IMG/VR virus record: IMGVR_UViG_3300042894_002115
Coordinates: 1 to 29,278 of that record
DNA length: 29,278 nt
Direction: 5' to 3' (one strand)
Source of the DNA: a virus
This document shows positions 1,750 to 18,150 of the stretch, in pieces (position 1 is the stretch's first letter; the number at the start of each line of letters is the position of its first letter). The notes under the pieces were generated by a model. The model was not told the DNA's origin. It was given only the letters and a program-made list of their open reading frames with translations, and ran no database searches. Both the position numbers and the translations under genes were made by a program.

Positions 1750-4244
1750 GCCAAGTCACTGAACTGCTGGTACGGATCAAGGAGCAGGGCGGTGAGCAGC
1801 TCACAAGGCTTCAGGGCACGCTGAAAAACCTGGCGCAACAGACGGCTGCAACAAATATCAACTTCAAGGAAGCATCAAACGAACTGCGCAAGATACAGCA
1901 AAACTCTGCAAATAGCATCAACAATCTCAAAGGATATGCAAATGCTTGGCGCGAGATTGCAAATAGCGTTGATATCGCGAGTGCTGAATTTAAGCAGGCA
2001 AGCGCGGAGGCGGCAAAACTTGATGCACAACTCAGGAAGGTCCAACCTGGTGGTCGTGGTCGTCTTGCAGGCGCTGCGCAGATTGCGGGCACAATTGCTG
2101 GCGCTGGCGTCTTTGGCGGCCTTGAGGGCGGTGCTGGCGCTGCCATAGGTGGCATTATTGGTGGCGTCCCTGGCTCAATTGTTGGCGGTGCAATTGGTGC
2201 ACAAGTTGGGCAGGCACGTCAATCGCTTGGTGGCCTTGCTGATTACACGGCACAGATTGAGAAGCAGCGCATTGCCTTGCGTCTTGTTACTGCAGATGCA
2301 AATTCCTTTGCTCAAGGTTTGGCATTTATTGATCAAACAAGTCGTCAATTTGCAATTCCGCAAGAGCTAATTACACGTCAATTTACGCAGTTGTCGGCAT
2401 CTGTCATTGGTGCGGGTGGAAACGTTAAAGACGCTGAGAAGGCGTTCCTTGGCATTGCTGCTGGTATTCGAGGCACAGGTGGCAGCCTTGAGGACATGGA
2501 CGCAGCATTGCGTGCAACTGCGCAGGTGTTCAGCAAAGGCAAGGTAAGTGCTGAAGAATTGCGTCAACAGATTGGTGAGCGGCTGCCTGGTGCATTTACT
2601 TTGTTTGCCAAGTCAATCGGCATGACACCGCAGGAACTTGATAAAGCCCTAGAGCAAGGTCAAGTTTCGTTGCAAGATTTTATGAAGTTTGCCGAGGAGC
2701 TATTTAAGAGGTACGGCAAAAACGCTGAAATCATCGCCAAGGGGCCTCAGTCTGCTGGTGACCGGTTGCAGGCGGCCTTGTCACGCTTGAGCGAGAGCGT
2801 TGGTCGATTGTTGGCTCCTATTGGTGCTGCATTTCAAAGCATCTTTGCTGACATTGTCGAGGCTATTGATCGCGCTGCACGCTCTCTTGCTCGCTTCATG
2901 GGCATGAAGTTTTACGACCCAACTCGAATCAATGAGTTAAAAGGTGACATCGCAAGAATTCGCAAGGAAATTGATCAGCTTGGGCCGACTGGCGGTAAGG
3001 CAACTGCAGGACGTGAGCAGCTTTTACGCTTGAAAGTTGCAGAGCTGACGCAGCTCGAAGGTCTCAAGCCAAAAGGTGGCTCTACTGGTCAACTGCCGCC
3101 TAGCAATTTGCCTGGGATTATCCCTAGGGCTGGCAAAGAAGGTCGTGCCAAAGAAGATCAAGAAGCAAAACGTCAAGAAAGACTGCTCGAAAGGCGAATT
3201 GAGCTGACTCGCAAAGCGTCGGAATTTCAACGTGACCTTAACAATAAAGTCTTCGAGACAAATGAAAAAATTCAATCCTTAGGCGCAAACTCCATTCAAG
3301 TCTTTGAACGCCAATATATTGACAAGGTAACTGATGCTGAAAAGATTACGGGTGATTTGCTTCTTAAGATCTTCAACTTTGCTAAGGAAGTTCGCGAAGC
3401 TGGCGGCAAACTAAACATTCAAAATCTTGTTCAAACTGTTGTCACTCTTGAAAATACAGCTAAATCGTTGGCACAGAATGAATACGTCACAAATTTGAAT
3501 GACCTATTCAAAGAGCTTGATACAACGTTTACTGAGATCACGGATCGCGTCTACGAAAATGCACGCGCCTTGCAGTACAACGCAGATGTCATGGGTGGCC
3601 TCAAGGATGGCCTGATGAGTTATAGCGAGGGCATTGGTACAGTCAGGCAGGCATTCAGCGATTTAGCAGAATCTGGTATCAAGAAGATCGAGGATTCAAT
3701 TTTTGAATTATTGACGACTGGCACCGTCAATTACAGAGAGTTTGCATCACAAATCCTCAAGGAAACAACGCGGATGATTCTTCAACAATATGTTTTGAAG
3801 GGTGTGATGCAAGCACTGGGATTCTTGAAACCTGCAGCAGCTTCTGGTCTTAGCCCATTACAGGGCATCCCCCTGTTCCAATCTTCAAGTGTAAACTTCA
3901 ATCCTTTGGCATTTGGCTCCAGCTTTGCAATGGGTGGCGTTATGACGCCTTACGGGCCGATGCAGCTCAAGAAATACGCCAATGGCGGCATTGCCAATTC
4001 GCCTCAGCTTGCTGTGTTTGGCGAAGGTGCACGTTCTGAAGCGTATGTCCCGCTACCTGATGGACGTTCAATCCCAGTTACAATGAAGGGCGGCGGTGAA
4101 TCGACAGTAATCGTGAACGTCGACGCTACTGGCTCACAGGTGCAGGGCAACAACAGCGATGCAAATGCACTTGGTCGTGTCGTGGGTGCCGCAGTGCAGC
4201 AAGAATTGATCAGGCAAAAACGTCCTGGAGGCCTGCTCGCATAA
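1746..4244 (+). CDS. tape measure protein
   Basis: This 832-residue protein should set tail length and be ejected with the DNA. The N-terminal 100 residues form charged coiled-coil-like helices. Residues about 105-160 are a Gly/Ala-rich hydrophobic stretch (GAGVFGGLEGGAGAAIGG and following) able to insert in membranes. Residues about 228-324 carry the recognised phage tape-measure domain, with AAGIRGTGGSLEDMDAALRA, EELRQQIGERLPGAF and GMTPQELDKAL. A second charged helical region follows, and the C-terminus has the lambda-gpH-like segment GEGARSEAYVPLPDGR. It is the longest helical protein in the tail module and follows the chaperone pair, as expected. Its start overlaps the preceding stop (ATGA). 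For scale, lambda gpH has 853 residues. Confidence 0.93.
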   Translation: MSQVTELLVRIKEQGGEQLTRLQGTLKNLAQQTAATNINFKEASNELRKIQQNSANSINNLKGYANAWREIANSVDIASAEFKQASAEAAKLDAQLRKVQPGGRGRLAGAAQIAGTIAGAGVFGGLEGGAGAAIGGIIGGVPGSIVGGAIGAQVGQARQSLGGLADYTAQIEKQRIALRLVTADANSFAQGLAFIDQTSRQFAIPQELITRQFTQLSASVIGAGGNVKDAEKAFLGIAAGIRGTGGSLEDMDAALRATAQVFSKGKVSAEELRQQIGERLPGAFTLFAKSIGMTPQELDKALEQGQVSLQDFMKFAEELFKRYGKNAEIIAKGPQSAGDRLQAALSRLSESVGRLLAPIGAAFQSIFADIVEAIDRAARSLARFMGMKFYDPTRINELKGDIARIRKEIDQLGPTGGKATAGREQLLRLKVAELTQLEGLKPKGGSTGQLPPSNLPGIIPRAGKEGRAKEDQEAKRQERLLERRIELTRKASEFQRDLNNKVFETNEKIQSLGANSIQVFERQYIDKVTDAEKITGDLLLKIFNFAKEVREAGGKLNIQNLVQTVVTLENTAKSLAQNEYVTNLNDLFKELDTTFTEITDRVYENARALQYNADVMGGLKDGLMSYSEGIGTVRQAFSDLAESGIKKIEDSIFELLTTGTVNYREFASQILKETTRMILQQYVLKGVMQALGFLKPAAASGLSPLQGIPLFQSSSVNFNPLAFGSSFAMGGVMTPYGPMQLKKYANGGIANSPQLAVFGEGARSEAYVPLPDGRSIPVTMKGGGESTVIVNVDATGSQVQGNNSDANALGRVVGAAVQQELIRQKRPGGLLA

Positions 4245-4615
4245 TGGCCACTTTCAACGACGCAACAGTTGGCACAAGTAGCGGCGGGACAACGCCTGAC
4301 TTCAGCCTGACCAAGAAAAGTGAACCCAAATATCGCACCGTTAAGTTTGGTGACGGTTATGAGCAGCGTTTGCGTTATGGATTGAACCAAAATCCAAAGG
4401 TTTGGGATTTGCGGTGGACAGCCAAAAGCAACGCTGATGCCGATGCAATTGAAGCATTTTTTGATGCAAGAGCTAATGATGCCGCTGCCTTTGATTGGAC
4501 GCCACCAGCCGGTGGCAATGCTGGTAAATACATTTGCCCTAATTGGAGCAGGGAACTTCAATATGCAAATATCAATATCATCACCGCCACGTTTGTGCAG
4601 GTGTTTGAGCCATGA
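4244..4615 (+). CDS. minor tail protein, lambda gpM-like
   Basis: This 123-residue protein fits the gpM/phage minor tail family, which forms the first ring of the tail tip below the tape measure. The recognisable core is YRTVKFGDGYEQRLRYG near the N-terminus, followed by DLRWTA, AFFDARANDAAAFDWTPP and a final TFVQVFEP strand. Family members are about 110-120 residues and share the F-GDGYEQR signature and the aromatic Trp-Thr-Pro turn. The ATG shares its A with the tape measure stop (TAATG), and the gene end overlaps the gpL start, so translation is probably coupled. Position H-M-L is conserved. Confidence 0.9.
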   Translation: MATFNDATVGTSSGGTTPDFSLTKKSEPKYRTVKFGDGYEQRLRYGLNQNPKVWDLRWTAKSNADADAIEAFFDARANDAAAFDWTPPAGGNAGKYICPNWSRELQYANINIITATFVQVFEP

Positions 4616-6156
4616 GCGAGATGTTTCAGGAGCTGCTCAGCTCCAACCCTTACGCGATCATCGAGCTGTTTGAGCTGCACCTTGACGCAACGCTGCACGG
4701 CACGACTGAGATTGTTTACTTTCACCCTGGTGTGAATCAGAAGACACCATCAGGCAACATCATCTGGAAGGGCAAGCCATATCAGGCACTACCGATCGAG
4801 GTAGAGGGCTTTGAGTACAACGGCACTGGCCAGTTGCCACGACCGAAGGTGCGGGTATCAAACTTGCTTGGCAACATCTCGGCGCTGCTGCTGAGCGTCA
4901 ACGAGTTCACGATTGGCAACGACCTGACAGGCGCGAAGGTGATCAGGATCCGCACGCTGAGCAGGTTCCTTGACCCTGTCAATTTCACTGGCGGCGTGAA
5001 CCCCTATGGCACACCGGCCAACGAGGAGATGCCACGTGAGATTTACTACATCGACCGCAAGTCAGTTGAGAACAGGGACGTTGTTGAGTTTGAGCTGGCG
5101 GCAGTGTTTGACTTGGCTGGTGTGCGTGCGCCGAAACGGCAGGTGATCGCCAACATTTGCCAATGGAAATATCGCAGCGCTGAGTGTGGCTACACAGGCA
5201 GCAACTACTTTGATGAGTACGACAACGCCTTAGGGGCCACGCCTGCACCTAATTTCAACTCAACCGCATTTGGCGCTCAGCTCAACGTCAACGAGACATT
5301 GAACGAAGGCGACGCGATTGTCTCGTCCAATGGCTGGTATCGAGCGCTTATGCAGGCCGATGGCAACTTCGTGGTCTACAACAAGGCGAACGTGCCTGTC
5401 TGGCAAACTGGAACAAACCGTGGTGACGGCACTTGGCAGCTCAGGATGCAGGCTGATGGCAACCTTGTCATCTACAACGGCAGCACTGCGATCTGGGCCA
5501 GCAACACAGTCGGCACCGCATCACCAACGGGCTTGGCATTCCTTGGCTGGTATCCAACCGATGGTCAGACCGGCCGCTCTGGTGGCTTTGGTTGGGAGTG
5601 CGTCGGATCATCGCCTGCTAGTGCTGGGCTGACTAACACGCAGACGGAAACGTTCACGGTCAGTGGCCGCACAATCACAGTTCAGTTCACGTTCACGTCT
5701 GCTGCGCTGCCTGTCGATCACTACACAGGTGAGTCGTTCGCTTGGAACGTCATTAGCAGTCAGTCAATCAGCAGTTCAACAGGCAGCTACTACCAGGGCG
5801 AGGTGATCAACCTGCCTAAGACCCTGAGCAGCAATAACCCATTCAGAAACAATCACCCCACACTGGGCACCTTGACGGAGGCAGGCCCGCAGTATGAGAT
5901 CACAGGCGTCAGCGGCAACAGCAATAACCGGCTGAGTATCACGACGACCGGTCAGCTCATTGTGTACACAGGCGCCAATACACCGCTCTGGACATCGAGC
6001 TACGCCAGCGCTGTCGAGCCTCTAGTGCAGACCGGCACTGTTGACCCGTTGCGTGATGTATGCGGCAAGCGGATCAGTTCATGCAGGAAACGCTTTGGTG
6101 AGTTCAACGACTTACCCTTTGGATCATTCCCAAGCGCTGGTACGTTCTACGGATGA
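4612..6156 (+). CDS. minor tail tip protein, lambda gpL-like, with inserted bulb-type lectin domain
   Basis: This 514-residue protein has a gpL fold in two pieces. Residues 1-200 carry the tail-tip domain and the first cysteine pair (C183, C192 in ICQWKYRSAECGYTG). Residues 478-514 carry the second pair (C484, C491 in VCGKRISSCRKRFG) and the usual ending. gpL proteins bind an iron-sulfur cluster with four cysteines. Between the pairs lie about 280 extra residues. They include two B-lectin repeats with the exact QxDxNxVxY motif (MQADGNFVVY near 248, MQADGNLVIY near 282), each followed by a Trp strand, and a degenerate third repeat near 443-464 (TTTGQLIVYTG). Around 300-440 is an unidentified beta-rich segment. 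The usual gpL length is about 230 residues. The insertion probably displays a glycan-binding lobe on the tail tip. Start and end both overlap neighbours. Confidence 0.9.
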   Translation: MSEMFQELLSSNPYAIIELFELHLDATLHGTTEIVYFHPGVNQKTPSGNIIWKGKPYQALPIEVEGFEYNGTGQLPRPKVRVSNLLGNISALLLSVNEFTIGNDLTGAKVIRIRTLSRFLDPVNFTGGVNPYGTPANEEMPREIYYIDRKSVENRDVVEFELAAVFDLAGVRAPKRQVIANICQWKYRSAECGYTGSNYFDEYDNALGATPAPNFNSTAFGAQLNVNETLNEGDAIVSSNGWYRALMQADGNFVVYNKANVPVWQTGTNRGDGTWQLRMQADGNLVIYNGSTAIWASNTVGTASPTGLAFLGWYPTDGQTGRSGGFGWECVGSSPASAGLTNTQTETFTVSGRTITVQFTFTSAALPVDHYTGESFAWNVISSQSISSSTGSYYQGEVINLPKTLSSNNPFRNNHPTLGTLTEAGPQYEITGVSGNSNNRLSITTTGQLIVYTGANTPLWTSSYASAVEPLVQTGTVDPLRDVCGKRISSCRKRFGEFNDLPFGSFPSAGTFYG

Positions 6157-6864: not shown

Positions 6865-7458
6865 ATGTTCCGCGTTATCAAGGTTTACGGCAAGCTGGCA
6901 AAGCATCTAGGGCAGCGCAGCTTTAAGGCTGCTGTGAAGACCCCGGCCGAGGCGATTCGGTTCCTGCTTGCCAACTTCCCTGACCTACGCGGTGTGCTGT
7001 CAGAGGGCGATTACAAGGTCACCGTGGGCCGCAATCAGCTTGACCTCGTCGATCATCCAGAGCACCTGCATTTCCCTGTTGCCAGCCAAGAGCCGATCAG
7101 GATTATCCCAGTGATTGCTGGCGCAGAGGGCGTTGGGCAGGTTCTTGCGGGTATAGCGCTGATTGCTGCTGCAATCTTCATTCCTGGTCTTGGCTTGGGC
7201 CTTGCTGGTGCAACGGTGACGCAAATTGGTCTGTTGGGTGGTGCGCTTGTGCTGGGCGGACTATCGCAAATGTTGACCCCTACGCCGACCATTAAACAAG
7301 GCATGGATGGTGACAACGACCCGCGCAAGTCGTATAGCTTCTCTGGTATTCAGAACGTCTCGCGGCAGGGCGTGCCTGTGCCGATTATTTACGGCGAAGT
7401 GTTTACTGGAAGTATTGTCGTTTCGGCTGGCATCAATACTGAAGAGGTTGCGTCATGA
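6865..7458 (+). CDS. tail assembly protein, lambda gpI-like
   Basis: This 197-residue protein matches the gpI family. A ubiquitin-like N-terminal part (VIKVYGKLAKHLGQRSF, then ILANFPDL-type helix and EPIRIIPVIAGA) is followed by a hydrophobic Gly/Ala-rich stretch around residues 90-135. The C-terminus ends in a short basic and polar region leading to QGVPVPIIYGEV. In lambda gpI is required to build the tip but is not found in the finished virion. The GlyGlyAla-rich segment may contact the tip or the tape measure. The position between gpK and gpJ, with a four-base overlap into gpJ, is conserved. Confidence 0.92.
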   Translation: MFRVIKVYGKLAKHLGQRSFKAAVKTPAEAIRFLLANFPDLRGVLSEGDYKVTVGRNQLDLVDHPEHLHFPVASQEPIRIIPVIAGAEGVGQVLAGIALIAAAIFIPGLGLGLAGATVTQIGLLGGALVLGGLSQMLTPTPTIKQGMDGDNDPRKSYSFSGIQNVSRQGVPVPIIYGEVFTGSIVVSAGINTEEVAS

Positions 7459-10400
7459 CGAAGCGTTTGATCGCTGGTGCTGGCGGTGGTGGTGGTGGTG
7501 GTGGCAAAGGCGGCGGCGGCGGTGGTGGCGGCGGTAGTGCAAACGTCACAAAAGACAATCTTGATTCACGGCAGGTAGCGCGGATCATTGACCTTCTTTG
7601 TGAAGGCGAGATCGAAGGATTCCCATCTGCTCGTGGTTACACGCTGGGCACGACGGAATACAACACAGCGATGTTGAAGGATGTTTATCTCAACAACACG
7701 CCAATCCTTCGCTCGACTGCCAACCCGTCTGCCGTTCAGGCTTCTGATTACAACTTTGATACAACTGGCGGCGTCTTTGAGTTTCGCACCGGCACACAGA
7801 ATCAAACCTATACGCAGAACGTAGGCGACGCCAACCAGAGCACCACAGTCGTCAATACCAAAGTCACACAGGCAGCCGCGGTTACGCGGTCGATCACTGA
7901 CCCTGATGTCAACGCTGTGCGCGTCACGATCGGCACGCCTGCACTTCAGATCTTTAAGAACAACGGCGACGTCGAGGGGGCTGTCATTCAATACAGGATT
8001 CAAACTTCATACAGCGGTGGACCATTCTCAACTGTTGTTGAAAGTGAGATCAAGGGCCGCACGGCTGATCTATATCAACGCATTCATCGCATTGACCTGA
8101 CCGCAGCAGCACCGGTTGACATCCGCGTTGTACGCGTCAATGCAGATGCTGCACCATCAGGTGAGCAGACAGAGAACAGCGACTTTTATTGGTACGACTA
8201 CACCGAAAAGATCAACGCCAAGACCACTTATCCAAACAGTGCACTGTTCGCCGTCAAGCTCAGCGCTGAACAGTTCAACAGCATCCCCTCGCGCTCGTAT
8301 CGCCTGCGTGGCCTCAAGGTGCGCATCCCTAGTAATGCCACCGTCAACCAGACCAACGGTCGTCTGATCTATGCGGGTACATGGTCAGGCAACTTCGGTG
8401 CAGCACAGTGGACGACAGACCCTGCGTGGATCCTGTGGGACCTGCTGACCAGCACCCGCTATGGGTTTGGTGATCACATCGACGCGACGCAGCTCGACAA
8501 GTGGAGCTTCCTTGCCGCCAGCCAATACTGCACTGAGGTTGTATCCGATGGCAAAACAGGGCAGGAGCCGCGCTTTTCATGCAACGTCGTCATTCAGACG
8601 CAACAAGAAGCGTTCAAGCTGATCAGCGATCTGTGCTCAGTGTTTCGCGCCATGCCGTTCTGGGCCAATGGCACGCTTGAGATTGCGCAGGACCGGCCGC
8701 AGGACTACAGCTACATCTTCAACCAAACCAATGTCACCGAGGAAGGATTCAGCTACAGCGGCAGCAGCTTGAAGACACGGCACACCGTTGCTGTTGTGCA
8801 GTATTTCGACATGAACCTGCGCGACCTTGCCTACGAGGTGGTCGAAGACAAGGCAGGCATTGACAAGTTCGGTGTTGTCAAAACGGAGATCTCGGCGTTC
8901 GCCTGCACCAGCCAGAACCAAGCCCGACGCGTTGGCGAATGGCTGCTGTACACCGAACAGAACGAGACTGAGGTCGTCAGCTTCAAGACTGACATCGCCG
9001 CTGGCATCACGGTGCGGCCTGGTGACCTGATCAAGATCGGTGATCCTGTGCGTGCTGGTGTGGTGCGCTCCGGCCGCTGCATAAGTGGCTCAACAACGAC
9101 GGTGGTCAAGCTCGACCGCGATGACGTTCAACTGTTCCCAAGCGGCCCACCAAATGACTTCACGTTCAACGTGCTGCTGCCTGATGGCACCTTGGCTGTG
9201 GTTGCTGGATCGAACCTGGTAGGCAACTCAGTCAGTACTGGCACGGTCTTGACTGCAGCGCCTGTTGCTGGTGCGCCGTGGACCATTGGCGACTCCGCCG
9301 TTCAGATGTCAACGTGGCGGGTGCTGACGATCAAGGAAGAAGGCGACGCCTTTGCTGTCACGGCTGTTGCCCATAACCCAAGCAAGTATGACTACATCGA
9401 GCGGGACATCCCTCTCAGCCAGCGCGACGTATCAGACCTGAACGAACCGCCAGAAACGCCAACCAACCTAGGCGTCAATGAAGTGCTATATGAAAGCAAC
9501 GGGCAGGTGCTGTCGAAGCTGATCATCGGCTGGCGTGCGGCTGCTCGGGCACTTAGCTATGAGGTGCGCTACCGGTACAACAACGGCAACTGGGTGGCGA
9601 ACACAACCCGCTCGGTTGACTTTGAGATTGCCAACAGCGACGTTGGCCGCTACGAGATCGAGGTGACAGCACTGGGCGCGATCAACAGCAAGCGCTCGAC
9701 ACCCGCCGTCAAGACCTTCGACGCGATCGGTAAGACCGCCCCACCTGCCACGATCCCTGACCTGTTCATCGCCCCAATCGACGAGCACACGGCTGAGCTG
9801 TACTGGCCGCAGGCGGTTGACCTGGACGTGAAGATCGGCGGCAAGATCCGCATCAGGCACACGCCTATCACGGATGTCACGGCGACATGGGGAAAAGCAA
9901 ACGACATCGTGCCAGCCGTTGCAGGCAGCAGCACGCGCAAGATCGTGCCACTGCTTGAGGGCACCTACTTCATCCGCGCTTTTGACTCGCTCGGCAATGA
10001 GTCGTCAGGCGTGGCCACAGTCGTGGTTGACCTGCCCGCTCCTCAGGACCTGCTGCTGGTGCAGGAATACAGAGAGGAAGACAACAGCCCGCCGTTCAAC
10101 GGCACCGGTACGAACTTGTACTACAACGAAGCCGAGGTGGGCCTGGTGCTGGCGGCTGATGAGCTGGTCGATGACATGGCCACCGACAACAACTGGGACG
10201 GCCTGGGCCTGATCGACTACATCGGCGGTTCAGCCAGCGAGGGCAGCTACCAGTTTTATGAAACGCTGGACCTTGGCGCCACCTACGACCTTGGCCTGCA
10301 GCAGATCCTCAAGACACGCGCCTACGAGCCGGGCAACACATGGGACGAGCGCCTTGACCTGATTGATCTGTGGGATGACATCGACGGTGATGACCTTGGC

Positions 10401-10838
10401 GCGGCTAACTGCCAACTGTTCGTCAGGACCACTGGCGACAACCCGTCTGGCACCCCGACCTGGGCAAGCTGGCAGCCGTTTGTGAACAACACCCACCGTG
10501 GGCGCGGCTTCCAGTTCAAGGTTGTGGCCACTACCACCAACGCAGCGCAGAACGTGGTGATTGAGGAGCTGGGCGTAATCACGCACTTTGAGCGGCGCAC
10601 AGAGCAGCAACGCAACTTGAGCAGCGGCGCCGGAGCATATGCGGTCACATTCCCGACAGCGTTCTACGGCACGCCAAGCGTGGGTATCACCGCGCAGGAC
10701 ATGGCGACGGGTGACTATTTCACGGTCGGCAGTATCAGCAGAACTGGCTTTACAGTGACCTTCCGCAATAGTGGCGGTAGCATGGTGAGCAAGACCTTTG
10801 ACTACCAGGCCGTCGGTCACGGCAGGCAGATCACCTAA
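7455..10838 (+). CDS. host specificity / central tail tip protein, lambda gpJ-like
   Basis: This 1127-residue protein is the baseplate hub and receptor-contacting tip. After a very Gly-rich start (residues 8-28, almost all Gly with one Lys) comes the gpJ signature KDNLDSRQVARIIDLLCEGE. The following tail-hub domains include a WxxxPAWILWDLLTSTRYG segment near residue 330. At least one fibronectin type III domain lies around residues 665-760, starting PPETPTNLGVNEV. The C-terminal 80 residues (RNLSSGAGAYAVTFPTAFYG to FDYQAVGHGRQIT) look like a beta-sandwich tip domain shared by many siphovirus gpJ proteins and are the best candidate for receptor binding. Lambda gpJ is 1132 residues, so the length matches. 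Confidence 0.95.
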   Translation: MTKRLIAGAGGGGGGGGKGGGGGGGGGSANVTKDNLDSRQVARIIDLLCEGEIEGFPSARGYTLGTTEYNTAMLKDVYLNNTPILRSTANPSAVQASDYNFDTTGGVFEFRTGTQNQTYTQNVGDANQSTTVVNTKVTQAAAVTRSITDPDVNAVRVTIGTPALQIFKNNGDVEGAVIQYRIQTSYSGGPFSTVVESEIKGRTADLYQRIHRIDLTAAAPVDIRVVRVNADAAPSGEQTENSDFYWYDYTEKINAKTTYPNSALFAVKLSAEQFNSIPSRSYRLRGLKVRIPSNATVNQTNGRLIYAGTWSGNFGAAQWTTDPAWILWDLLTSTRYGFGDHIDATQLDKWSFLAASQYCTEVVSDGKTGQEPRFSCNVVIQTQQEAFKLISDLCSVFRAMPFWANGTLEIAQDRPQDYSYIFNQTNVTEEGFSYSGSSLKTRHTVAVVQYFDMNLRDLAYEVVEDKAGIDKFGVVKTEISAFACTSQNQARRVGEWLLYTEQNETEVVSFKTDIAAGITVRPGDLIKIGDPVRAGVVRSGRCISGSTTTVVKLDRDDVQLFPSGPPNDFTFNVLLPDGTLAVVAGSNLVGNSVSTGTVLTAAPVAGAPWTIGDSAVQMSTWRVLTIKEEGDAFAVTAVAHNPSKYDYIERDIPLSQRDVSDLNEPPETPTNLGVNEVLYESNGQVLSKLIIGWRAAARALSYEVRYRYNNGNWVANTTRSVDFEIANSDVGRYEIEVTALGAINSKRSTPAVKTFDAIGKTAPPATIPDLFIAPIDEHTAELYWPQAVDLDVKIGGKIRIRHTPITDVTATWGKANDIVPAVAGSSTRKIVPLLEGTYFIRAFDSLGNESSGVATVVVDLPAPQDLLLVQEYREEDNSPPFNGTGTNLYYNEAEVGLVLAADELVDDMATDNNWDGLGLIDYIGGSASEGSYQFYETLDLGATYDLGLQQILKTRAYEPGNTWDERLDLIDLWDDIDGDDLGAANCQLFVRTTGDNPSGTPTWASWQPFVNNTHRGRGFQFKVVATTTNAAQNVVIEELGVITHFERRTEQQRNLSSGAGAYAVTFPTAFYGTPSVGITAQDMATGDYFTVGSISRTGFTVTFRNSGGSMVSKTFDYQAVGHGRQIT

Positions 10839-11647
10839 TGGCACAGGCAACTGACTACAACATTGCAAACCAGTCAGGCGCCAACTTCCGCGCTGAGCTG
10901 AACACGATCCTTGCAGCGGTCGTCAGTCAGAACTCTGGCTCCTCGGCGCCGACCACCACCTACGCGTACCAGCTTTGGATTGATACAGGCGCCAGCCCGA
11001 ACCCACTGCTGAAGCTGCGCAACGGTGCCAACAGCGCATGGATCACGATCGGTGATGTGACCGTCGCCAACCTTGGCCTGGCTGCTCTGTCGGGTGCAAC
11101 CTTTACGGGTGACATCACGCTCAACGCTCAGTCTGACCTGCGGTTTGCGGATTCTGATAGCAGCAACTGGGTCGCGCTGCAGGCACCTGCCACTGTTAGC
11201 AGCAATGTTACGTGGACTCTGCCCGCTACGGATGGCAGCAGCTCACAGGCACTGAGCACCAACGGCAGCGGCGTGCTGTCCTGGGCAAGCTTTGCAGCAC
11301 TGGCCACAGCGCAGACGTTCACCGCTGCTCAGAGGGGCACGATCTCGGCGCTGACTGATGGCGCAACGATCACGGCAGACTTTGCACTGGCGAATAATTT
11401 TTCAGTCACGCTGGGCGGCAATAGGACCCTGGCCAACCCAAGCAACCTGACGGCTGGTCAGTCGGGCTGCATCTGGATCACACAGGACGGCACCGGCAGC
11501 CGGACCTTGGCATATGGCAGCTACTGGGACTTCACAGGCGGCACTGCGCCGACGTTGACCACCACTGCTGCTGCTGTTGACTGCCTGGTGTATGCCGTGC
11601 AGAGCAGCACACGTATTACCGCCACCCTGATCACCAACCTGAGCTGA
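10838..11647 (+). CDS. tail fibre protein
   Basis: This 269-residue protein starts with MAQATDYNIANQSGANFRAE, an N-terminal form common in tail fibres that follow the tip genes of marine and freshwater phages. Residues 60-100 hold a LWIDTGASPNPLLKLRNG strand pair that ends in an ALSGATFTGDITL fibre-type repeat. The rest is Ser/Thr/Ala-rich beta structure (LPATDGSSSQALSTNGSG) with no helix-rich chaperone segment. The ATG shares bases with the gpJ stop, and the following lectin-like fibre starts on the last base of its stop. It probably attaches to the gpJ tip or joins it to the larger distal protein. Confidence 0.8.
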   Translation: MAQATDYNIANQSGANFRAELNTILAAVVSQNSGSSAPTTTYAYQLWIDTGASPNPLLKLRNGANSAWITIGDVTVANLGLAALSGATFTGDITLNAQSDLRFADSDSSNWVALQAPATVSSNVTWTLPATDGSSSQALSTNGSGVLSWASFAALATAQTFTAAQRGTISALTDGATITADFALANNFSVTLGGNRTLANPSNLTAGQSGCIWITQDGTGSRTLAYGSYWDFTGGTAPTLTTTAAAVDCLVYAVQSSTRITATLITNLS

Positions 11648-14055
11648 TGCTGGTCCCCGGTTCCGCTAACCCGCTCCTGCTTCGTACTGTTGCTGCCGCC
11701 GCAGGGGGTATCTCCAGGAGCATCCGCCTGAATGCACCCGACTCGGCCCACCTCAGCCGCACCCCCGCATCTGCTGGCAACCGCAAGACCTGGACCTGGG
11801 CGGGGTGGGTGAAGCGGGCAACGGTTACGGATACGTGGGAACCACTTTTCTTCACCGTTACAGGCAGCGCGTACACTTTTTTCGGCTTTTCTAGCCAAAA
11901 ACTTTACCTGCAACAATACGATGGAAGTTCTTCCACGCTTGAAGCGCTTACGACTTCTGTCTACAGAGACCCTAGCGCTTGGTATCACGTGCAAATTGCC
12001 GTAGACACAACACAAGCAACCGGTAGCAATCGTCTAAAGCTATACATAAATGGAGTTCAAGTCACCGCGCTTGACATTGCCAACTACGGCTCGCAAAACC
12101 TTGATACATACATCAACGCGACAAATGCACATTACATCGGAGTGTGGTCAACTTATAGCCATTACTTTGACGGCTACCTAGCCGACATCTACTTCATCGA
12201 CGGCCAAGCGCTGACCCCCAGTAGCTTCACCGAAACCGACGCCACCACCGGCCAGCTCATCCCGAAAGCCTTTAGCGGTTCATATGGTTCGCAAGGTTGG
12301 CATTTGGAGTTCGCGGACAACAGCAGCAACACCGCGACCACACTAGGGAAGGACACTAGTGGCAACGGCAACAACTGGACCCCGAACAACCTGTCGGTCA
12401 CCGCTGGCGCAGGAAATGACTCCCTTGTAGACGTTCCCACTAACGGAGCGCAGACGGATACCGGCGTGGGGGGTGAGGTGCGGGGGAATTACTGCACCTG
12501 GAACCCCTTAAGTCAATCCGGCAGCAATACGTTATCAAATGGAAATCTAGATGTTGTCATTGCTGCCAGCAGTACCGCTGTTGCCGTTGGAACTATTGGC
12601 GTAAGCAGTGGCAAATGGTACTGGGAAGTTGTTGCAACAGCAATGACCACTGCTGGGGCAATGATCGGGGTTGCCGATTTAAGCGCTGCCGCAGACAACA
12701 GAGGATACCCAAGCCCCAATGGATGGTATTACTACGCCAATAGTGGGCAGAAGTATAACAACAATACAGGCGCTTCTTATGGTGCAACATACGCGGTGAA
12801 TGATGTAATAGGTATTGCGCTTGACATGGATGCGGGAACTCTTACATTTTACAAAAATGGAGCCACTCAAGGTGTTGCATACAGTACAGGCATAAGCGGG
12901 AAAACAATATCTCCTGCCCTCAACAATGGCACAGGTGGTGGTACTCAGACCTACATTGCCAACTTCGGCCAACGCCCCTTCGCCTACACGGCCCCCAGCG
13001 GCTTCAAGGCGCTCTGCACGGCAAACCTGCCCGCGCCATTAGTCACAAAGCCTAATACGGTTTTTGACGCTATTACTTATACCGGAAACGGTAGCAGTCA
13101 AAGCATTACTACTGATTTCAGTCCAGACTTTGTTTGGTTAAAAAGCAGAAGCAACGGAACTTACAGCCATTATTTATTTGATATTGTTAGAGGTAACACG
13201 CAAATTCTTTCTTCCAACTCAACAGGAGCAGAAAGTCCATCTTCAACAAGCCTTACGTCATTTAACTCAACCGGCTTCACAGTTGGATCGGACGTTGGTA
13301 CAAATTCAAACGGGATGCCGTTTATAGCCTGGACCTGGGACGCCGGAAGCTCAACGGTCACGAACACACAAGGCTCCATCACTTCTAGTGTCAGGGCCAA
13401 CGCGACGGCGGGGTTTTCGATTGTTACGTACACCGGCAATGGCACCAACAACGCCACCGTTGGTCATGGTCTTGGCGTAGCTCCGCGCTTTCTGATTGGG
13501 ATGGATCGCACAGGCGGAAACTGGCAGGTCTGGGGAGCCAACATGAATAATGGTTCGTTTGATTGCATCATGAATCTCAATACGACTGATGCACTTGCTA
13601 CAGGAATTACGACACGGTTTAGGGCGGCGTCGTCAACTACATTCACAATCGGAACAGACGGGGACATAAACGCTAACGGAAATACCTATGTGACTTACTG
13701 CTTCGCCCCAGTAGTCGGGTACTCTAGTTTCGGCAGCTACACCGGCAACGGCAGCTCGGATGGGCCGTTTGTTTATACCGGGTTTAGGCCAGCGTTTGTG
13801 ATGCTAAAGGAATCAAGTGCTTCTGGTAACGGGTGGGAGATTAGAGATTCAATGCGAGAACCTTATAACGACAGCAACAGGACGATTCTTTTGCCAAATT
13901 TAAGTAACGCAGAAATTACAGATGCGTTTCCAATCGACTTTACATCCAGCGGATTTAAGGTTCGCAATACTGGTGGAGGTAGCAACAACTCTGGCGCCAC
14001 ATACATCTACGCCGCCTTCGCCGAATCCCCCTTCAACTACGCCCGCGCCCGCTGA
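11647..14055 (+). CDS. large lectin-like tail fibre / adhesin (LamG-like + SPRY + repeats)
   Basis: This 802-residue protein looks like a receptor-binding fibre. Residues about 35-190 form a concanavalin A/LamG-like domain (TWTWAGWVKRATV, then KLYINGVQVTAL and YFDGYLADIYFIDGQAL). Residues about 315-455 form a SPRY-like domain (SSGKWYWEVVATAM, GIALDMDAGTLTFYKNG). The C-terminal third has three related modules starting near residues 473, 590 and 693, each opening with YTGNG and ending in a Tyr/Phe-rich strand such as TYIYAAFAESPF. Base composition is patchy, with AT-rich blocks near 11870-12170, 13050-13310 and 13790-13960, as expected for recombining adhesin genes. It is the last large gene of the tail operon. 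Confidence 0.8.
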   Translation: MLVPGSANPLLLRTVAAAAGGISRSIRLNAPDSAHLSRTPASAGNRKTWTWAGWVKRATVTDTWEPLFFTVTGSAYTFFGFSSQKLYLQQYDGSSSTLEALTTSVYRDPSAWYHVQIAVDTTQATGSNRLKLYINGVQVTALDIANYGSQNLDTYINATNAHYIGVWSTYSHYFDGYLADIYFIDGQALTPSSFTETDATTGQLIPKAFSGSYGSQGWHLEFADNSSNTATTLGKDTSGNGNNWTPNNLSVTAGAGNDSLVDVPTNGAQTDTGVGGEVRGNYCTWNPLSQSGSNTLSNGNLDVVIAASSTAVAVGTIGVSSGKWYWEVVATAMTTAGAMIGVADLSAAADNRGYPSPNGWYYYANSGQKYNNNTGASYGATYAVNDVIGIALDMDAGTLTFYKNGATQGVAYSTGISGKTISPALNNGTGGGTQTYIANFGQRPFAYTAPSGFKALCTANLPAPLVTKPNTVFDAITYTGNGSSQSITTDFSPDFVWLKSRSNGTYSHYLFDIVRGNTQILSSNSTGAESPSSTSLTSFNSTGFTVGSDVGTNSNGMPFIAWTWDAGSSTVTNTQGSITSSVRANATAGFSIVTYTGNGTNNATVGHGLGVAPRFLIGMDRTGGNWQVWGANMNNGSFDCIMNLNTTDALATGITTRFRAASSTTFTIGTDGDINANGNTYVTYCFAPVVGYSSFGSYTGNGSSDGPFVYTGFRPAFVMLKESSASGNGWEIRDSMREPYNDSNRTILLPNLSNAEITDAFPIDFTSSGFKVRNTGGGSNNSGATYIYAAFAESPFNYARAR

Positions 14056-16866: not shown

Positions 16867-17159
16867 ACGACAAGACGACATGGCTGTGGCGTTATCAGAG
16901 CCGTGACTGGCGGCATGATTTACAGCGTGCTGCGCAGGAACACAAGTTTCACGCGACGTTGACGCCACTGCTTGATCGTGAGATTGATCGTGTCAACAAG
17001 GTCATTGATCTTGAAGATGAGCGATCAAAGCGTCGTCCTGTCGTGATTCATGAAGACGTCACACCAGAGCAGACAGGTGACAGTCGTCTTTTAGGTGGGC
17101 CAATGTCAATCTCTTCCCCTTGGAACGATGAAAACCCAGAACCGCCTGAAGCTAGTTGA
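16815..17159 (+). CDS. hypothetical protein lacking a normal start; possible frameshift extension of 16729-16866
   Basis: The open frame ending at 17157-17159 has no ATG or GTG before its conserved-looking part. Candidate starts are TTG 16815, CTG 16863 (overlapping the upstream TGA) or a -1 frameshift at 16854-16860. The body reads TTWLWRYQSRDWRHDLQRAA, then TLTPLLDREIDRVNKVIDLE with helical charged character, then a proline-rich tail (NDENPEPPEAS). No family recognised. It overlaps the endolysin start by 32 bases. If read by frameshift, it would be a soluble domain tethered by the 16729 membrane helix, about 143 residues in all. Confidence 0.55.
   Translation: MGAASDQSAEACLPKALNDKTTWLWRYQSRDWRHDLQRAAQEHKFHATLTPLLDREIDRVNKVIDLEDERSKRRPVVIHEDVTPEQTGDSRLLGGPMSISSPWNDENPEPPEAS
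16854..16860 (+). promoter_or_regulatory. possible -1 frameshift heptamer
   Basis: C CCA AAG occurs at 16854-16860 in the X_XXY_YYZ phase of the 16729 gene, three bases before its TGA. A -1 slip gives GCG CTG AAC GAC AAG and leads into the 99-codon frame that lacks a normal start. I see no strong stem within the next ten bases, so the evidence is weaker than at 1402. Confidence 0.4.
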
Positions 17160-18150
17160 TCTGTTCAAATATTACAAAGCGTTACCGCATCAAACTGCGG
17201 CGATCTTTGAATTGGAAGCAGAGTTGTTAAAGGAATGCCCTGATTTGCTGAATAGAGATCAGGAGTGGTTCAAAACCTGGACGCAGGCTGGTAAGCAGGA
17301 TGTTTTTGATAACAACTGGGTTGGTGTTGTTGCAGCAGCAAAGAAAGGTGGTGCGAAATTCCCTGAGCTTGTTGCGGCGCAGTGGGCGCTTGAGTCTGGC
17401 TTTGGCAAGCACGTATCAGGCGAGCACAATTACTTCGGCCTGAAAGGCACAGGCACTAGTCGTAACACGAAAGAATATGTAAACGGCAGGTGGATCACGA
17501 TCCTTGATTCGTTCCTGGATTTTCCTGATCTTGAGACCTGCGTGTTCTATCTGGTCGAGCGCTGGTACAAGGATTACAACGTGTACAAAGGTTGCAATAA
17601 CGCTGCAACACGTGAGGACGCTGCTCGTTGGCTGGTCAAGGAGGGTTACGCGACAGACCCTGCCTATGCGGACAAATTGATCAAGCTGATGAATGAACAG
17701 GACCCTGTGAACAAGCCAAAGCCGTCTGGTGGGTTTACGCCTGACAAGCCGTTTGATTACAAGATCACACCCAATATCTTGTACGGCGAGCTTGCGCTTT
17801 ATGACAACAGGCGTCGTTTCACGAATCAATCGCAATGTGACACTGCTGTTGAGCTTTGCGTATTCCTTGAGAAGGTGCGTGCAAAGTTTGGTAATAAGGC
17901 GATTGTTATCACGAGTGGGTATCGCCCACCTGCTGTCAATGCTGCTGTTGGTGGTGCTGCCAACTCAGAGCACCTGTACAACAAGGCTGACACGGGCGCT
18001 GTGGACTTCTGGGTGAAGGACGTGGACATCTACAAAGTGCAAGAGTATTGTGATCAGACCTGGCCGTGCAGCGTTGGTTACGGGGCCAAGAAAGGCTTTG
18101 TGCACCTCGGCATGCGTCAAGGTCGTCCTCGTATCCGTTGGGATTACTGA
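17128..18150 (+). CDS. endolysin: glucosaminidase-like + M15 peptidase domains
   Basis: This 340-residue enzyme should degrade host peptidoglycan for release. The N-terminal half (residues about 65-190) has the FlgJ/LYZ2 N-acetylglucosaminidase signature, AAQWALESGFGKHVSG with likely catalytic E89, then NYFGLKG and FLDFPDLETC. After a Pro/Lys-rich linker (KPKPSGGFTPDKP, about 195-208), the C-terminal domain is an M15A-type metallopeptidase with SGYRPPAVNAAVGG, zinc ligands H282, D293 and H326 (SEH, AVDFW, FVHLGMR) and a final RPRIRW. ATG 17128 is preferred over GTG 17095, which would overlap the upstream gene further. The combination of glycan- and peptide-cutting domains is unusual enough to note but known in phages. 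There is no signal peptide, so export needs a holin. Confidence 0.9.
   Translation: MKTQNRLKLVDLFKYYKALPHQTAAIFELEAELLKECPDLLNRDQEWFKTWTQAGKQDVFDNNWVGVVAAAKKGGAKFPELVAAQWALESGFGKHVSGEHNYFGLKGTGTSRNTKEYVNGRWITILDSFLDFPDLETCVFYLVERWYKDYNVYKGCNNAATREDAARWLVKEGYATDPAYADKLIKLMNEQDPVNKPKPSGGFTPDKPFDYKITPNILYGELALYDNRRRFTNQSQCDTAVELCVFLEKVRAKFGNKAIVITSGYRPPAVNAAVGGAANSEHLYNKADTGAVDFWVKDVDIYKVQEYCDQTWPCSVGYGAKKGFVHLGMRQGRPRIRWDY

Follow-up and report, generated by a model that had tools for sequence, protein, structure and literature searches.

A putative bulb-type lectin carrying a nested domain in the Fe-S loop of a gpL-like phage tail tip protein

Results

We analysed one metagenomic virus record of 29278 bases (hereafter the window, meaning the whole of this stretch), which encodes a 514-residue gpL-like tail tip hub protein with a nested insert (4612..6156, + strand). 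Our joint reading, to which we assign a probability of about two in three, is that the Fe-S loop of this gpL hub is opened by a three-lobe lectin, that the lectin is itself opened by a module of ~135 residues, and that the lobes bind sugars while the nested module tunes host range.

The tail tip protein and its gene neighbourhood

The gpL-like identity proposed by the initial annotation is borne out by profile searches: Phage_tail_L (PF05100, Pfam) matches the protein at 1e-55, as two stretches corresponding to the HDI and Fe-S parts, and TIGR01600 matches it at 2.1e-62 (210 bits versus a cut-off of 70.75). Of the solved structures, two come closest, those of the F2-pyocin hub (25vf) and lambda gpL (8iyk), and the HDI-like attachment domain (residues ~1–170; 4612..5121, +) was aligned with both. 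The ORF is preceded by a gpM-like neighbour (Phage_min_tail; 4244–4615) and followed by a gpK-like one (JAB and NlpC/P60; 6153–6863). As in lambda, the gene order is M-L-K-I-J, with J carrying FNIII-A_GpJ (Pfam) and the small I-like ORF, which has no Pfam match, placed by position and size only. Judged by its sequence, the product of ORF 4612–6156 is a homologue of lambda gpL.

Elsewhere in the window, the gpJ-like protein (7455–10838) displays a weak C-terminal H-type lectin / gp53-like match (E 0.0018 and 0.012), a probable tail fibre (11647–14055) contains LamG-like, SPRY and DUF7483 domains that are further likely binding parts, and a candidate two-domain lysin (glucosaminidase and M15 peptidase) is found at 17095–18150.

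An unusually long loop between the Fe-S cysteine pairs

The first Fe-S cysteine pair consists of C183 and C192 (5158..5187, +; codons 5158–5160 and 5185–5187) and the second of C484 and C491 (6061..6084, +; codons 6061–6063 and 6082–6084), all four being invariant in alignment A1 (41 sequences). The spacings of 9 and 7 residues, with 291 residues between the pairs, are as previously claimed. We compared this distance with gpL-like ORFs retrieved from viral contigs by means of a DNA pattern that targets the second cysteine pair, a sample that depends on the pattern used and in which 107 of the 114 listed ORFs were measurable. Among the matches listed, the inter-pair distance is 19–20 residues in 96 of these 107, 32 in four and 23 in one; it reaches 90 in L277 and 105 in L329, and four contigs of the window's type have 289–318 residues. 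A long loop between the gpL cysteine pairs is unusual.

Additional sequence also occurs at other places in gpL-like proteins. Three ORFs (L285, L300 and L253) carry ~240 extra residues between the second cysteine pair and the LPFGSFP end, and in marine virus AG-345-A17 (L082, 5986–6978, +) the HDI part is enlarged by ~145 inserted residues, in a protein devoid of the Fe-S cysteine pairs, PKRQC running directly into FPSIGTF. In Mannheimia phage 535AP2 (L084, 1483–2677), two adjoining ORFs are both annotated as minor tail protein L.

The insert is predicted to be a complete bulb-type lectin

Between the cysteine pairs, the initial annotation had placed a bulb-type lectin with two exact QxDxNxVxY lobes and, some 140 residues later, a degenerate third one; each of these elements was recovered. 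In the profile search, B_lectin (Pfam) scores 34.1 bits (4e-8) on the insert alone, over the cut-off of 32.4, and 31.7 bits (2.3e-7), just under it, on the whole protein; PDB lectin chains match the 514-residue protein down to ~1e-17. Together with the Phage_tail_L match, these scores lie well outside what chance would give. In the structure prediction with AlphaFold2, residues 210–470 are modelled at about pLDDT 90, the insert being predicted to fold as a lectin, and the gpL core is mostly below 50. We treat the four-cysteine [4Fe-4S] cluster as putative.

The predicted model superimposes on gastrodianin (Foldseek, 1xd5_D) with a target TM of 0.91 and an rmsd of 1.8 Å, in an alignment of 244 columns for a 110-residue target that leaves a gap of ~134 residues in the query. 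Since gastrodianin is aligned whole across this gap, the three lobes belong to one lectin, and the insert is modelled as a complete three-lobe B-lectin with a beta-prism fold. Its first part (residues ~216–300; 5257..5511, +; B_lectin match, pLDDT ~90, gastrodianin fold) comprises the N-terminal strands and lobes 1 and 2, with exact sugar sites at Q248–Y256 (5353..5379, +) and Q280–Y288 (5449..5475, +), respectively. Lobe 3 (5923..5997, +), included in the gastrodianin match, starts near residue 438, and its site (residues 444–452) retains only the Tyr. This site is exact in relatives, reading QNDGNLVYY in L108 and L111, QSDGNLVYY in L112, QNDANLVLY in L117 and QNDGNLVLY in L128.

The exact sugar site is kept in lobe 1 in 62 of 84 proteins and in lobe 2 in 57 of 84, and at least one exact site is present in 69 of the 84 proteins and in 24 of 31 representatives (clustered at 80%). 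The remaining 7 of the 31 representatives have none, which excludes mannose binding as the general function. A search of the literature on bulb-type, B_lectin or monocot lectin domains in phage tails found no relevant report.

A second domain is nested between lobes 2 and 3

The proposal that another domain sits inside the lectin itself gained support from several sides. The lectin fold spans the gap and lobe 3 is exact in relatives; removing the nested part raises the scores of lectins in PDB searches, from 65.4 to 75.2 bits for pyocin L1 (4le7) and from 55.9 to 72.3 bits for SCAFET; the module folds alone, with a predicted pLDDT of 92.5 and pTM of 0.87; and the breakpoints of the cassette described below lie near its borders. 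These lines together support domain-in-domain nesting in the 514-residue protein. The module (residues ~301–435; 5512..5916, +) is predicted to be beta-rich with one helix.

A PDB fold search with the module's model returned nothing at E ≤ 0.001, the best hit being at 0.17. A match of its profile to 6xi1 (3.8e-8; a 38-residue stretch, four times) was discarded as unreliable, the fold search being empty. In BFVD, two large viral proteins match the module at 17–18% identity, D6PHN5 (TMq 0.79) and D6PFJ6 (TMq 0.76), from which it may occur in other phage proteins. PHROGs gave weak matches, and among 372 sequences the nested profile matched only ORFs with gpL signature motifs, the alignment being too variable for a scan of the collection. 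Against the cultured phage collection (tblastn), neither the whole insert nor one nested module had a match, and another nested module had a single weak one, in Klebsiella phage RCIP0055 (26%, E 0.03).

The nested module looks like an exchangeable cassette

Pairs of close relatives differ, on average, most in the nested module. Between L108 and L111, protein identity is 99% in the core, 96% in the lectin and 55% in the nested part, and nucleotide identity drops from ~95% to 18–71% (mostly 18–62%) over residues ~295–431 before returning to 96% at lobe 3, with breaks near residues 295 and 435. L143 and L145 behave similarly (99/96/63% in core/lectin/nested). Over the 289 pairs with a core identity of at least 93%, which are not independent, the means are 96.7 (core), 93.5 (lectin) and 89.9 (nested); a few pairs display the reverse pattern, with more divergence in the lectin than in the nested module. 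In 23 close relatives of the window, variation peaks at residues 361–375 and two clear alleles are found in 360–388; from this variability profile and the allele list we delimited a most variable block at residues 361–390 (5692..5781, +). The simplest reading of these alignments is exchange of the nested module by recombination, and the module looks like an exchangeable cassette.

The variable region was also considered as the target of a diversity-generating retroelement. No direct repeats of at least 35 bases were found within the window, a record that may be incomplete, and this candidate was rejected as there is no template repeat near the variable region in the window.

Distribution and divergence of the insert-bearing proteins

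The insert architecture and the conserved cysteines recur, at 42–98% identity, in numerous contigs that come from different samples. In a quick, unrooted tree of the core (insert removed), for which insert-bearing rows were collected by similarity to the window, all 29 of them fall on one side of a branch with an SH-aLRT of 97, and L277 and L329, which carry other inserts, are located elsewhere; in this tree the insert-bearing proteins form one clade. Insert-less cores near this clade include L364, from a cyanobacterial MAG contig, and high core scores among named phages are found for marine cyanophages such as S-H1 and MED4-184; these sequence affinities hint at a cyanobacterial host for the window's phage.

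Identity to distant relatives is ~60% for the core versus mostly ~30–45% for the insert parts, indicating that the insert is diverging faster than the gpL core. Estimates of dN/dS range from 0.005 to 0.14 for every part where they could be computed, pointing to purifying selection on all these parts. In one bacterial MAG contig (L363, 1391–2611; RGVP01000028.1), the frame departs from homology after residue ~323, perhaps through a frameshift or an assembly error.

Discussion

In the lambda tip, the Fe-S domain is located on the outer surface (PMC10721106), and a sugar-binding-type domain at this place has precedents. In the RcGTA hub g13, the iron-binding domain (143–167/250–263) is split by a domain described as oligosaccharide-binding (168–249) (PMC7296036), and in the R4C roseophage hub (142–161/244–266) by one at 162–243 (PMC10276861). 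The window protein shares with both a gpL-type hub with such a domain between the Fe-S halves (here C192–C484, and with predicted binding), and the general design of a sugar-binding insert in the Fe-S loop is, from these two hubs, already known. Their inserts, however, are of ~82 residues and, going by the published descriptions on which we base this distinction, adopt another fold, one compared with the insertion domain of LKA1 gp49 (PMC7296036), whereas the window has a ~145-residue B-lectin plus a ~135-residue nested module. Lambda gpL and the F2-pyocin hub (8iyk, 25vf) likewise combine an HDI domain with a four-cysteine Fe-S domain but have a short inter-pair loop without lectin. The three-lobe beta-prism with QxDxNxVxY sites is that of bulb-type (GNA-like, MMBL) lectins such as gastrodianin and of pyocin L1; unlike in the window, these are free or tandem, have no domain between lobes 2 and 3 and are not virion parts. 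What is new, as far as our searches show, is that the insert is a B-lectin, that it holds a nested domain and that this domain behaves like a cassette.

The gpL-like protein of viral contig L277 also carries an insert in the Fe-S loop, of 90 residues, but this is a different domain, weakly resembling an endosialidase beta-barrel domain (9e-5, below cut-off), on a separate branch of the gpL tree. The same protein (3000–4517, +) has an extra ~190-residue stretch in its HDI part that is carbohydrate-binding-module-like by eye, and the 105-residue insert in the Fe-S loop of L329 contains repeated FNA(T/S)YYL motifs and has no Pfam match.

In the mechanism that we propose, the opened Fe-S loop of the hub would display the lectin, whose lobes would probably bind mannose-like envelope sugars of the host in a weak, multivalent manner, and the module lodged between lobes 2 and 3 would probably make the selective contact and tune host range, the latter judged by its variability only. 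We infer glycan binding, the role in adsorption, receptor choice and the position of the insert in the virion. Pyocin L1 binds the D-rhamnose of bacterial LPS via two QxDxNxVxY lectin motifs (PMC6240691), so that an envelope sugar of bacteria is a reasonable candidate ligand for the predicted lectin sites. A more specific version is possible and we advance it tentatively: the nested module would be an undescribed fold serving as an exchangeable specificity cassette and the lectin a conserved cradle in the hub's Fe-S loop, so that recombination inside the lectin gene would swap the module and switch the receptor, leaving tail assembly untouched.

The loss of all exact sugar sites in some relatives could instead mean that the lectin is a structural stem only, its sites being relics or dispensable, and that the nested module alone binds, perhaps to a protein receptor. 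This would fit the variability of the nested module, higher than that of any other part, and its block-wise exchange within a conserved lectin, and LlpA bacteriocins do pair one sugar-binding B-lectin with one reading the protein BamA (PMC6240691); we nevertheless consider it unlikely, given that most relatives hold at least one exact site. Lower still we rank a general adhesive without any role in host choice, sticking to capsule, mucus or particles as proposed for tail Ig-like domains. Such phage domains are thought to be weak binders of surface carbohydrates (PMC10721106) and unrelated decorations do occur at several places in gpL-like proteins, but the nested module is the focus of discrete alleles and of exchange in blocks, which suggests selection on specificity. 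As the window represents just one metagenomic record, a chimeric contig or fused reading frames might also be suspected; the independent contigs with identical architecture and conserved cysteines, under purifying selection, refute this and reduce its probability to next to nothing.

The protein illustrates a tail tip hub evolving by insertion within insertion while its Fe-S core stays tightly conserved. The nested fold, confidently predicted and without a significant PDB match, is a good structural target, and the insert offers a defined place for testing, across a large group of uncultured phages, where the choice of host is encoded. If the nested module is swapped as a unit, this would be a neat way to alter what the phage sticks to.
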